From contig NZ_CP080649.1 of assembly GCF_019603315.1 (NCBI RefSeq), positions 821,501 through 885,500 of the forward strand: 64,000 nt of DNA, read 5' to 3'. A model generated the notes under the pieces. That model had not been told where the DNA came from and ran no database searches. It saw only the letters and a program-made list of their open reading frames with translations. Shown one piece after another: positions 41,122 through 45,988 of the stretch (position 1 is the first letter of the stretch; the number at the start of each line of letters is the position of its first letter). The translations under genes and the position numbers were made by a program. Source of the DNA: Ruficoccus sp. ZRK36. GTDB taxonomy: Bacteria; Verrucomicrobiota; Verrucomicrobiia; Opitutales; Cerasicoccaceae.

Positions 41122-41156
41122 CAAAAAAAGACCAGGGGCGGATCGAAATCCGCCCC
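41122..41156 (-). terminator. Intrinsic terminator for the chitinase gene
   Basis: GGGGCGGAT (41135-41143) and ATCCGCCCC (41148-41156) form a 9-bp stem with a CGAA loop. On the minus strand a run of seven T follows after a few bases (plus-strand A-run at 41123-41129). It lies 109 bp beyond the chitinase stop and is well oriented to end that transcript. The rest of 41056-41264 shows no gene. Confidence 0.75.
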
Positions 41157-41264
41157 CGGCAGTGTATTGGGGTGAAACAGGGGCACATGGGAAGTGCCAG
41201 TGTAGGGTGCTATACCCTAATTGTTATAATAGGCACTTTTCCTGAATAGTTAAGGCCTTTTTTA

Positions 41265-44200
41265 TTATTGTCCGACGGTCACGTTGCTCATGTAGCGATC
41301 TCCCACCAGCTTCATGACAGACAAATCGCTGTCATAGTCGCGGTAGTCATCGTCAATCTCCCAGAACATAACCCCGCCCAGGCCCATCTGATCGACGTAG
41401 TCGAGCTTGTTGGAGACCATTGCCGGGCTGTCATAGGAGATGAAGGTGCCGTTGTGGTAGATGTAGGAAGCCTCCGACTGCGCATCCCAGGACTCGGCAT
41501 AGCTCGAGTCGTTTTGCATCGTCTCGACGATCGTGCGGTAGGACAGGATGCCGTTCTCGACGGTACCGGCTCCCAGGCCAGACGCACTGGCATAGAGACC
41601 GTTGTTAGCCGAGGAGACGCCCGTCCATACGTAGCCGTAGAGCGGGATGCCGAGGTTGATCTTCGAGGCCGGGACACCGGCGTCGAGATACCCCTGCACC
41701 GCAGAGTGTGCGTTGTACTCGGTCATCGGGTCGGAGCTGTTCGCGTACAGCGGAGCATTGTGACCCGTGCGGCTTCTGTCCCAGCGACCATGGAAGTCGT
41801 AGGTCATCAGGTTGAGCCAGTCGACCTGATCAGACAGGGCGGAGAGGTTGATCTCGTCGTACTTGTCATAACCGGCGGGTACGGCTGCGCTGATCAGGTA
41901 CTGCTTACCGTCGATAGCCCCCTGGGCATCGAGCGCTTCACGCAGGGCCTGCGCCAGCAGCGCGTAGTTCTCGCCGTCCTCGGGGCGGACATTCGTATTC
42001 GCATCGGTGGCGATGACCGGGTACTCCCAGTCCAGATCGATACCGTCGAAGTCATACTTGACCACGAAATCGACCACAGAGGCGGCGAACTTCTCACGGG
42101 CGGAGGCACTGGCCGCGATGTCCGAGAACCGGCCCGAATCATACCAGCCGCCAACGGCGATCATGGTCTTCAGGTGTGGGTACTGCGCCTTGAGTTCGAG
42201 GTACTGGTTGAAGTTCCCGCGCAGCGGCTGGTCCCAGGTGTCGTCCCCAAAGGTCTTCTCCAGGTCGGCCCAGGTGTCGTGGATGGCAATCTCGCCGTTA
42301 CCGTCGATGATCGCGAAGGCGTGCACGATGTGCGTGACCTTGTCAGCCGGGATATCGGCAACCTCGTAGCCACGGCCATAGATGCTCCAGCTGGCATAGT
42401 AAACGACCACGCGACCGTCACTTGAGGCGGAGTCATTACCGCCACCGGTACCGGTGCCGTTATCGCCGGAGTCATCCGAACCGTCGCCCGTGCCCGTATC
42501 ACCCGTGCCGTCGTCAGTCGATGAATCATCGTCCGAGCCATCGCCGGTACCCGTGTTGTCATTACCGTCATCGGTGCCAGTGCCATCATCGACCGTACCG
42601 TCGTCATCATCGGTGTTACCGGTGGTATCGTCGGAGACGCTGACGCCATTGAGGGTGACGTTGACAGGCTGGCTGGCGACATCACCGGGGGAGCCGTTGA
42701 AGCCGAAGCTCACGCTCTGGCCGGCGGCCAGCGATCCGTTCCAGCCGAGGCTGGAGATGGTGTAGGTGTCACCGTCCCGTGAGACCAGTTTAGCGTCCCA
42801 GATGCTGGTGATGGTGTAGGGCCAGTCGAAGGTGACCGTCCAGCTGTCGAGATCCTCGTCTGTGGTATTGGTCAGCGTGGCGTTAGCGGTGAAGCCGCTC
42901 CCCCAGTCGCTGGATACCGTCACCACAAGCGCGGCTGTCGAGCTGTCGCCGTCATCGCCGGTGTCGGTGTCATCGTCGTCGTTGTTACCGGTGTCATCAT
43001 CGGTCGTGTCGTCATCGTTGCCGTTATCCGTGTCGTCACCCCCGTTGCCGGTCGTATCGTCATCATCGCCGGAGAGGCTGACGCCGTTGACCACGATGTT
43101 GCTCATCTGTGCCGAGGAGTCACCGGTAGCCTGGAAGCCGAAGCTGACCGTCGAACCGGCGGCAATGGTGCCGTTCCAGCTCTCATTGCTGAAGGTGTGG
43201 CTGTCGCCGTCGCTCGTATCCTGCACCGCGCTCCAGTAACCGGAGATGTTAACAGGCAGGTCAAAGCTCAGCGTCCACGCACTGACGGCGGCGGTGCCGT
43301 TGTTGGTCAGGCTGACCGTGGCGGTAAAGCCGCTGCCCCAGTCGCTGCCGACGTTGTAGGCAACCGCGATGTCCGCGCTGCCGGAGTTCGAGTCTCCCGT
43401 ACCGGTGCCGTTACCGCCGGTGGAGTCTTCACCGTCGTCCGTCGACTCACCATCACCGTTATCGGAATCACCCGTACCGTCGCCGGTTGTGTCATCGCTG
43501 CCATCGGGCAAATCGATCCCACCGGCTTCGCCGAGGATGACCGGGTTATCGTAGTACTCCTGTACCTTCGAGATGAACCAGTAGTCATCGGTCGGGGGTG
43601 AGCCCACGCCATCGGTGCTGGCACCGACACCCGCGCCAAAGAGCGCAACGGCGACCCCGGCGTCCTTGGCCAGGGTGAGGTGCGAGCCCCAGGTCACGGA
43701 GTCACCGCTGACGGATACATCGGCCGTACCGTCATCGGTCGAGCCAAAGTAGGCCAGGCGCGTATCCGAACCGGGTGTGAAGGTGTCGCCCAGGAAGTAC
43801 GTGCCGGAGGAGTCTTCGTAGTGCTGCACCGTGTTGTTCAGAGATTCAAACAAGCCATCTGAGGCGTACGGATTAGTCGCATGCGTGGTGTTAATATGAC
43901 CGACGGGAAGCTGCCAGAGGACAACCGGGAGGCCCGTGGTCTCATGCATGGCGTTCACGAAGACCAGATAGTTGGTCCAGTGAACGGCGTTCCAGAACCA
44001 GATGCTGTTGGCAGGGTTGGCGGCATTACCGTCATAGGCGGCATCGAGGCCGTACTTGTCGATACTGACAAAGCTGGCTCCATGGGAGAGCACACCGGCG
44101 TCCACATAGTACTGGGAGATAGCGGCAGCCTCATTGTAAATAGCCAGGCGGCCGTCGGAGAGACCGAGCGAGTCGGTCAGGCGGACCACGCCCTTACCGC

Positions 44201-45542
44201 CGACGGAGGTCGTCCACCCACCCGGAGGCGAAGCCCAGAGGTTGAACTGCCAACCGTAGATAGCGCTGGGCTGGTACTTCTGGAAGGTGTAGTTAATCGC
44301 CTGCACAAGGCCGGCCAGCGTGTCGGGGAAAGCCGGGTCATTGGCATCCAAGACGCCCGCGGTGTAGGCGGCGCTGGTGGCGGCGTAGATTGCATCCGGG
44401 CTGGAGGTGTCATTCTGGGCGAAGTAGCCGAGGAAGTCCGGCTCGATAACCCAGCCGATGACTTCATCACCGGCGACCTGCCGGGTGATTTCCAGCGCGT
44501 ACTTGAGGTCCTCAAAGTAGCTGGCCATGTAGGCGGCGTCCTGCATGTGTGCCTTGTCGGTATAGTAGCTCTCGCCGCTGGCGGGGATATTATACCAGAC
44601 GAAGAAGGGGATCATCCCGAGCTTTACGCTCTCCTCGACATAACCGGTCGCACGCGAGCCGTCCTCGCCGTCCGAGCGCCAGTTCCAGCCATCACCGATG
44701 GCTGCGGTGGCCCCGCCGTTGAGGTAGATATAGCGGATGTCCACGCGCTTGTTCTGGTCGGCATTCTCAAAATCCTTCCAGAAGTCCAGGTCCGCCGAGG
44801 AGTCTTCACTCACCGAGCCGACGGCCAGGTACTCCGGTAGTCCGGGGACGGAGCCATCCTCGTTGAGCACACGCACGCCCACATAACGCACCGCGCCCGT
44901 ATCCGTATTTTCAATACGCAGCGAGGCACGCCCGGCAGACAAGCCGTTCAGGGTGACGCTCTGGCCATCGACCGAGGGCTCAAGCACGTCACTGTTATTG
45001 GTCGCAACGGTGTAAGTACCAGCGGTTTCAATGGTCAGCGCACTGGTCCCCTGCTCGATGGATACCTGCAAAGCGGTACCGTCGCCATCAACGCCGGAGA
45101 GCACAATCGAGCCGCCAGAGCCCGAACCGGTTCCCGGCGTGGGCGTATCACCGCCCCCTGAGGAGGATTCGCCGGAGAGGGTTGCCGTCAGCGGAGAGGC
45201 AACGCTGCCCGATCCGCTAAACCCGAACTGGACGCTCCCGCCGGCACCGACATCGCCGTTCCAGGAGGCATTACCGATGACCACGGTGCCATTCTCCTGG
45301 CTGAGGATTTGCGCATTCCAGATACTGGAAATCGTGAACGGAGCATCGAAGGTCAGGGACCACCCGCTCAGGGCGCTCCCGGTCGTATTAGTGAAGGTCG
45401 CATTGGCCGTAAAGCCACCTCCCCAGTTATCGGACACATCTACGTTTAACTGGGTGTCTGCAGCGCTGGCAGCTGTCCATGCCAGGATGGCATTGAGGGC
45501 TGCTGTCGCCGCTAGAGGTCGTATTCTGAACAATTTTGACAT
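41265..45542 (-). CDS. Secreted multimodular chitinase: CBM2, unassigned barrel-like module, CBM2, CBM2, GH18
   Basis: A 1425-residue exported protein with a signal peptide of about 28 residues. Approximate order: CBM2 (30-125); short Gly/Ser linker; a beta-rich segment (145-230); a module of about 440 residues (235-675) with DIRYIYLNGG, IPFFVWYNIP, WVIEPDFLGYF and SIDKYGLDA, which looks like a TIM-barrel hydrolase but matches no family I can name; Asp/Gly/Thr linker; CBM2 (720-825); Asp-rich linker; CBM2 (870-970); linker; GH18 (1043-1425) with DGIDLDWEYP, whose Glu is the catalytic acid of DxxDxDxE. Chitin or a related polymer is the likely substrate of the GH18 part. The ATG at 45542 gives a proper signal peptide; a GTG at 45584 would not. 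Confidence 0.92.
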   Translation of the reverse strand: MSKLFRIRPLAATAALNAILAWTAASAADTQLNVDVSDNWGGGFTANATFTNTTGSALSGWSLTFDAPFTISSIWNAQILSQENGTVVIGNASWNGDVGAGGSVQFGFSGSGSVASPLTATLSGESSSGGGDTPTPGTGSGSGGSIVLSGVDGDGTALQVSIEQGTSALTIETAGTYTVATNNSDVLEPSVDGQSVTLNGLSAGRASLRIENTDTGAVRYVGVRVLNEDGSVPGLPEYLAVGSVSEDSSADLDFWKDFENADQNKRVDIRYIYLNGGATAAIGDGWNWRSDGEDGSRATGYVEESVKLGMIPFFVWYNIPASGESYYTDKAHMQDAAYMASYFEDLKYALEITRQVAGDEVIGWVIEPDFLGYFAQNDTSSPDAIYAATSAAYTAGVLDANDPAFPDTLAGLVQAINYTFQKYQPSAIYGWQFNLWASPPGGWTTSVGGKGVVRLTDSLGLSDGRLAIYNEAAAISQYYVDAGVLSHGASFVSIDKYGLDAAYDGNAANPANSIWFWNAVHWTNYLVFVNAMHETTGLPVVLWQLPVGHINTTHATNPYASDGLFESLNNTVQHYEDSSGTYFLGDTFTPGSDTRLAYFGSTDDGTADVSVSGDSVTWGSHLTLAKDAGVAVALFGAGVGASTDGVGSPPTDDYWFISKVQEYYDNPVILGEAGGIDLPDGSDDTTGDGTGDSDNGDGESTDDGEDSTGGNGTGTGDSNSGSADIAVAYNVGSDWGSGFTATVSLTNNGTAAVSAWTLSFDLPVNISGYWSAVQDTSDGDSHTFSNESWNGTIAAGSTVSFGFQATGDSSAQMSNIVVNGVSLSGDDDDTTGNGGDDTDNGNDDDTTDDDTGNNDDDDTDTGDDGDSSTAALVVTVSSDWGSGFTANATLTNTTDEDLDSWTVTFDWPYTITSIWDAKLVSRDGDTYTISSLGWNGSLAAGQSVSFGFNGSPGDVASQPVNVTLNGVSVSDDTTGNTDDDDGTVDDGTGTDDGNDNTGTGDGSDDDSSTDDGTGDTGTGDGSDDSGDNGTGTGGGNDSASSDGRVVVYYASWSIYGRGYEVADIPADKVTHIVHAFAIIDGNGEIAIHDTWADLEKTFGDDTWDQPLRGNFNQYLELKAQYPHLKTMIAVGGWYDSGRFSDIAASASAREKFAASVVDFVVKYDFDGIDLDWEYPVIATDANTNVRPEDGENYALLAQALREALDAQGAIDGKQYLISAAVPAGYDKYDEINLSALSDQVDWLNLMTYDFHGRWDRSRTGHNAPLYANSSDPMTEYNAHSAVQGYLDAGVPASKINLGIPLYGYVWTGVSSANNGLYASASGLGAGTVENGILSYRTIVETMQNDSSYAESWDAQSEASYIYHNGTFISYDSPAMVSNKLDYVDQMGLGGVMFWEIDDDYRDYDSDLSVMKLVGDRYMSNVTVGQ

Positions 45543-45988
45543 AATCTCATCTGATTTGAGGTTTGCATGAGAGCCGTGAATCACGGGCTCTTGTCAGCGT
45601 CTGGAGCGGAGCCGCAGCTGCCCTGCTCATAAACGCGGTTTTGGGGTGTGTTTGCGGGTTTCGGCGGTACGGGCGTTGAAAACTATCGTATCTGCCTCCA
45701 CCGCGGGAAAACGGCCTGACGATGGCCGCCGCTAGTTGGAGTACGGGGTAATTATGACTATCTGCTGATAGGGATGACTCCTTTCGTGGGGACGAAAACG
45801 CCCCGGTTTTGTCAGTAGGAGTCCCCCGGAAGGGCTTTATTTCAGCCCCTGCAAAAAAACTTATCGCGTTTTTTAGCCCATCTGAATGCCTCGTGAGCGG
45901 CTTGGGTATTGCATTTGTCCGGGCAAGTGGACAACCTGTCCGGTTTGTTCATGTCCGATCACCTCACACTCAACGCACAGGTTTTTTA
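45543..45988. other. 446-bp intergenic region between divergent chitinase and purA genes
   Basis: No gene is supported here. GAGCC-GTGA and TCAC-GGGCTC at 45571-45590 can form a one-base-bulged hairpin in the leader of the chitinase transcript. GGACA and TGTCC around 45928-45940 form a weak dyad on the purA side. The region must contain both promoters, but I see no convincing -35/-10 pair and no riboswitch I recognise. The open frame from 45809 into purA is not a likely start. Confidence 0.5.

Follow-up and report, generated by a model that had tools for sequence, protein, structure and literature searches.

The 64,000-nucleotide stretch of the Ruficoccus sp. ZRK36 genome analysed here (contig NZ_CP080649.1, positions 821,501 to 885,500; hereafter the window) carries on its minus strand a gene for a multimodular enzyme, one module of which, an alpha/beta barrel, is the subject of this report. 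A single open reading frame spans 41265-45584 (-), and the likely start codon is the ATG at 45542, from which the coding sequence (41265..45542) is counted as 1425 aa. In the order of translation, all on the minus strand, the protein comprises a probable signal peptide read from the sequence, MSKLFRIRPLAATAALNAILAWTAASA (45459..45542); a first family 2 carbohydrate-binding module (CBM2; 45168..45455, approximate boundaries); an immunoglobulin-like (Ig-like) domain of the BIg-2 type (44856..45116); the barrel (43521..44852), which is unassigned in the libraries searched and is remotely related to glycoside hydrolase family 6 (GH6); a second and a third CBM2 (43095..43379 and 42636..42932); and a GH18 chitinase domain (41346..42416). 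Judged from its sequence relationships, the barrel is probably a catalytic domain from an as yet undescribed family of glycoside hydrolases sharing an ancestor with GH6.

The fusion of three CBM2 modules with GH18, reported in a preliminary description of this DNA, was recovered by Pfam: the three modules score 64-90 bits against a PF00553 cut-off of 24, and the GH18 domain occupies residues 1058-1413 (E 8.8e-102), with an intact DGIDLDWE motif found by motif search. The barrel-like motifs quoted in that description are present on the minus strand (IPFFVWYNIP from 44612, VIEPDFLGYF from 44450 and SIDKYGLDA from 44066). The profile search that it recommended left Pfam empty between the first and second CBM2, a region for which NCBIfam, PHROGs and phmmer against the PDB also returned zero matches. 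The barrel shares its polypeptide with a GH18 domain but is itself unlike GH18 chitinases: it gives no match to their profile and lacks the DxxDxDxE motif, the protein's only copy of which lies at residue 1180, within the C-terminal GH18 domain.

Residues are given below in a module numbering (533 aa, window 43518-45116, from the first to the second CBM2), to which 142 is added for numbering from the ATG. The orthologue in L004, a metagenome-assembled genome (MAG) of the same genus, is 80% identical with the same architecture, and the ratio of nonsynonymous to synonymous substitutions (dN/dS) of the barrel against it is ~0.17 (NG86: 0.123/0.710; the GH18 domain is similar), so the module is no chance reading frame. 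The linkers that join the CBM2 modules and GH18 (window 42417-43520) are extremely rich in Asp, Gly and Thr, with runs such as DDDDTDTGDDGD.

An AlphaFold2 model of the whole module, built from six close sequences, had a mean predicted local distance difference test (pLDDT) of 67 and a predicted template modelling score (pTM) of 0.72. It places a beta sandwich at module residues 17-83, whose Foldseek matches are Ig-like domains; a Big_2 match was obtained in relative L007 (E 0.0035). Eight barrel strands start at module residues 98, 127, 169, 221, 286, 349, 398 and 488, and the barrel modelled alone showed a similar fold (pLDDT 64, pTM 0.74). As modelled, an Ig-like domain of ~87 aa and, after it, an alpha/beta barrel of ~444 aa make up the module.

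A dispersed barrel family and its invariant residues

Seventeen members of the family were collected, from Verrucomicrobiota, a Spirochaetales MAG, a Deltaproteobacteria MAG, Vibrio, Salmonella, Serratia, Variovorax and Streptomyces. The close relatives (53-80% identity) comprise L004 and MAGs of Verrucomicrobia, Spartobacteria, Spirochaetales and Deltaproteobacteria, and the distant ones (22-29% identity) occur in Vibrio campbellii, Salmonella, Serratia, Variovorax and Streptomyces; the Vibrio member is matched by a Cupriavidus megaplasmid. A profile of the close group alone retrieves these distant members at E 1e-14 to 1e-28, the best of 2000 shuffled decoys reaching E 0.0075. By these profile comparisons, the barrel is a real conserved family.

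In whole-genome searches, two of three further genomes from the genus carried the module, as did 8 of the 337 Verrucomicrobiota genomes sampled, the source genome among the 8. The family profile found no further member in 148 other Spirochaetota genomes or in 56 other genomes of the phylum to which the Deltaproteobacteria MAG belongs, and three scans of viral contigs found no relatives of the module. This patchy distribution suggests horizontal spread.

A link to polysaccharide-active modules recurs among the relatives. CBM2 and GH18 are found together in the window protein, in L004 and in L016, CBM2 with GH5 but without GH18 in L019, and CBM2 as the sole partner type in L005, L006, L008 and L021. 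The partner is of the F5/8 type in L007, a CBM5/12 at the protein end in the Vibrio member and a ricin-type lectin in the Streptomyces member. Another Verrucomicrobiota member, L022, has a divergent architecture, its barrel being longer and its C-terminal region repetitive, resembling FG-GAP repeats.

The Salmonella member is STM0019 (L039:4315-7311, AFYI01000001.1; L010:3315-6311), an uncharacterised protein whose gene immediately follows that of the GH18 chitinase STM0018 and lies upstream of the bcf fimbrial genes. STM0019 is not listed in the chiA operon as published for this locus (PMC10109510), and a literature search on STM0019 or on a new GH6-related family found nothing on function. 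The Salmonella, Vibrio and Serratia relatives belong to the same barrel family as the window module, at 22-28% identity, but differ from it in carrying Asn for Glu225, in having other N-terminal domains and in the absence of GH18 from the same chain. The Serratia marcescens member, on the mobilizable plasmid pE10 (L011:3522-6152), is annotated only as 'chitinase', and its stretch of the plasmid is bordered by two IS91-family transposase genes.

Residues invariant in all 17 members include Y131, P170, Y175, G181, D227, G230, W294, D358, W401 and Q402, and no Glu is invariant across the 17. In the model, Y175, D227, W294, D353, D358, W401 and Q402 lie at, or up to five residues past, the C-terminal ends of strands 3-7, the active-site face of barrel enzymes. 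The preliminary description had seen a separate domain with acidic residues at its strand ends, and this was borne out by the invariant carboxylates and aromatic residues at these positions.

Tyr175 (Tyr317 from the ATG; 44592..44594, this and the following codons on the minus strand) is equivalent to Tyr169 of Trichoderma Cel6A (TrCel6A), Gly181 (Gly323; 44574..44576) stands at the position of the GH6 base (TrCel6A D175), and Asp227 (Asp369; 44436..44438), at the end of strand 4, is the equivalent of the GH6 catalytic acid (TrCel6A D221); all three are found in 17 of 17 members. The end of strand 6 carries Asp353 (Asp495; 44058..44060) in 16 of the 17, followed five residues past the strand by Asp358 (Asp500; 44043..44045), a candidate replacement base present in every member, as is the pair Trp401-Gln402 (Trp543-Gln544; 43911..43916) at the end of strand 7. 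Asp510 (Asp652; 43587..43589), in the loop past strand 8, is present in 16 of 17 with a gap in one, and is a possible counterpart of TrCel6A D401, the register with GH6 being loose here.

Kinship with GH6 cellulases

The GH6 enzymes are central cellulases, which hydrolyse beta-1,4-glucan with inversion and have a distorted, seven-stranded barrel. When the family profile was searched against the whole PDB, all five matches at E<5 were GH6 (best 6fao, E 0.013), and an earlier, smaller profile had given GH6 in three of four matches. The 17 members were aligned by hhalign with ten GH6 sequences at a probability of 90% (P 1.6e-6, score 55); control scores reached at most 18.3 with 100 column-shuffled GH6 alignments, 16.8 with a reversed one, 14.2 with GH5 and 23.1 with GH18. 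With the barrel-only model, Foldseek gave 19 matches with E<=0.001, ten of them GH6 enzymes and the remainder mainly GH53, and the YNIP..EPD of the barrel is column-locked with the YNIP-RD..EPD of GH6. On this evidence of profiles and alignments, the barrel is a remote homologue of GH6.

The numbering of TrCel6A was anchored on chains 1cb2 and 1qjw, titled Y169F, which show Phe at the Tyr of VVYDLPDRD; D175 is thus the Asp of RD, and the Asp of EPD, 46 residues further along, is D221. D221 is the catalytic acid of TrCel6A; D175 is proposed to serve as base by way of a chain of water molecules, and the D175A mutant retains 2-3% activity (PMC6091422). Both the acid and Tyr169 are retained in the family, as D227 and Y175 (17/17). 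The likeness to GH6 (PF01341; TrCel6A, TfCel6A, HiCel6B) thereby includes the consecutive YNIP and EPD strands, Tyr169, D221, the remote profile homology and a frequent secretion with CBM2. The barrel differs from GH6 in its Pfam score below the cut-off, in having Gly for the base D175, in the additional invariant Asp358 and Trp401-Gln402, and in eight predicted strands versus seven, a count taken from models with a mean pLDDT of only 64-67.

Several observations weigh against GH6 kinship. The signal is limited to ~80-100 columns, made up of the YNIP and EPD strands and the intervening segment, and it needs Verrucomicrobiota-like rows together with endo-type GH6; Vibrio-like rows alone, Streptomyces-like rows alone and exo-type GH6 alone gave no significant hhalign match, these sub-groups consisting of few rows. 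Taken by itself, the window module has no Pfam match, and the best-scoring member (L009) reaches 18.3 bits against a PF01341 gathering cut-off of 27. The GH6 base is lost, Gly181 standing in 17 of 17 members where ten of ten GH6 sequences compared have Asp, and the confidence of the models is middling (mean pLDDT 67 and 64). VIA-align puts clan GH-A barrels first (Z 15-17) and has no GH6 entry in its top 50, an absence that was not taken as exclusion of GH6 kinship. The PF01341 match of L009 (E 0.0023) was not counted, being out of register with the profile alignment. PF01341 found no GH6 in the source genome and 288 Verrucomicrobiota genomes, a result that does not show absence, the control having been silent in the second search.

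As read from sequence, the barrel fails GH6 membership, yet its mode of action is probably GH6-like. The earlier opinion that the module could not be assigned to a glycoside hydrolase family held as far as the curated libraries are concerned, and gave way where the remote GH6 homology and the retained catalytic acid supply a relative. The novelty of the family is provisional, the comparison having covered Pfam, NCBIfam, PHROGs and the PDB.

Proposed action, alternatives and setting

We infer catalysis by the barrel, and likewise its base, stereochemistry and substrate, as follows. The predicted fold is a (beta/alpha)8 barrel, and from the alignment the GH6 barrel would match strands 2-8, its first strand being absent. 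Asp227, at the end of strand 4, would protonate the leaving glycosidic oxygen in the manner of D221 in Trichoderma Cel6A, and its role as general acid would be the best-supported step of the mechanism. Tyr175 (Cel6A Tyr169) may help to position or distort the -1 sugar. The water would be activated by a carboxylate other than the GH6 base, which is Gly181 here: most likely Asp358, preferred because every member has it and GH6 lacks an equivalent, or else Asp353 or Asp510. Inversion is probable, assumed by analogy with GH6, and Trp294, Trp401 and Gln402 may line the sugar sites.

CBM2 modules bind cellulose and chitin. In the window protein they would anchor the secreted enzyme to an insoluble beta-1,4 polymer. 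Its GH18 domain would cut chitin, and its barrel either that polymer or a beta-1,4 glycan associated with it. Chitin, or its partly deacetylated form, is favoured because of the GH18 domain in cis, the adjoining GH18 in Salmonella and the CBM5/12 in Vibrio, and cellulose is possible because of CBM2, the GH5 partner and the GH6 kinship. The suggestion of a second activity on the same polymer as GH18 is plausible. A more far-reaching version, in which the barrel founds a new family in a clan with GH6, keeps the full eight-stranded ancestral barrel and inverts with its base on another strand, STM0019 then being a polysaccharide hydrolase overlooked in the chitinase locus, could be right and is put forward tentatively.

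Non-catalytic barrels occur within glycoside hydrolase families, and a Gly at the GH6 base position in every member would fit a catalytically dead barrel that now binds polysaccharide or acts as a spacer next to GH18. Such a loss is nevertheless unlikely: invariant Asp, Trp, Tyr and Gln are held at strand ends across several phyla, the GH6 acid is kept, the dN/dS of the barrel equals that of GH18, and some members (L012, L021) have few or no other recognised modules. It is also quite improbable that the invariant Asp pair, at strand 4 (D227) and past strand 6 (D358), is used unlike in GH6, for example on alpha linkages as in clan GH-D, with the GH6 likeness old and uninformative on the chemistry. 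Two structures annotated as alpha-galactosidases were among the early Foldseek matches of the first model, but such matches fell outside the top 50 for the barrel-only model, and the partner modules (CBM2, CBM5/12, GH5 and GH18) are related to beta-1,4 glycans.

Clan GH-A enzymes require Glu at the ends of strands 4 and 7. This pair is missing from the family, Glu225 being replaced by Asn in the Vibrio-like group, strand 7 ending in the invariant Gln402 and no Glu being invariant, which makes it very unlikely that the barrel is a retaining clan GH-A glycosidase (a GH5/26/35/53-like barrel) whose sequence has drifted past recognition. The best VIA-align matches are to GH35, GH1, GH5, GH26 and GH53 barrels (Z 15-17), and GH53 ranks high in the Foldseek search of the barrel model; however, the high, tied Z over many unrelated barrels suggests a general barrel shape, and hhalign of the family with a GH5 profile gave no signal (P 0.5). 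Clan GH-A membership was rejected despite the high VIA-align Z, because the required Glu residues are missing.

The remote relationship of the barrel to GH6 bears on a debated point, the identity of the GH6 base, which is disputed because D175A mutants retain some activity (PMC6091422). A natural GH6 relative that keeps the acid and has Gly at the base position would open this question to direct test. Membership of the family further suggests a function for Salmonella STM0019, whose gene adjoins a chitinase gene, and for orphan modules of several phyla.

In the source genome, the sole GH18 and the sole CBM2 modules found belong to this gene, and the search for GH20 found none. The neighbours of the gene are housekeeping genes, which we take from their translations to be a divergent adenylosuccinate synthetase-like gene upstream and a convergent PolX-like gene downstream. 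A strong terminator-like hairpin of 13 pairs with a T run, a consensus match only, lies downstream of the gene (41131..41160, minus strand) and suggests a single-gene transcript.

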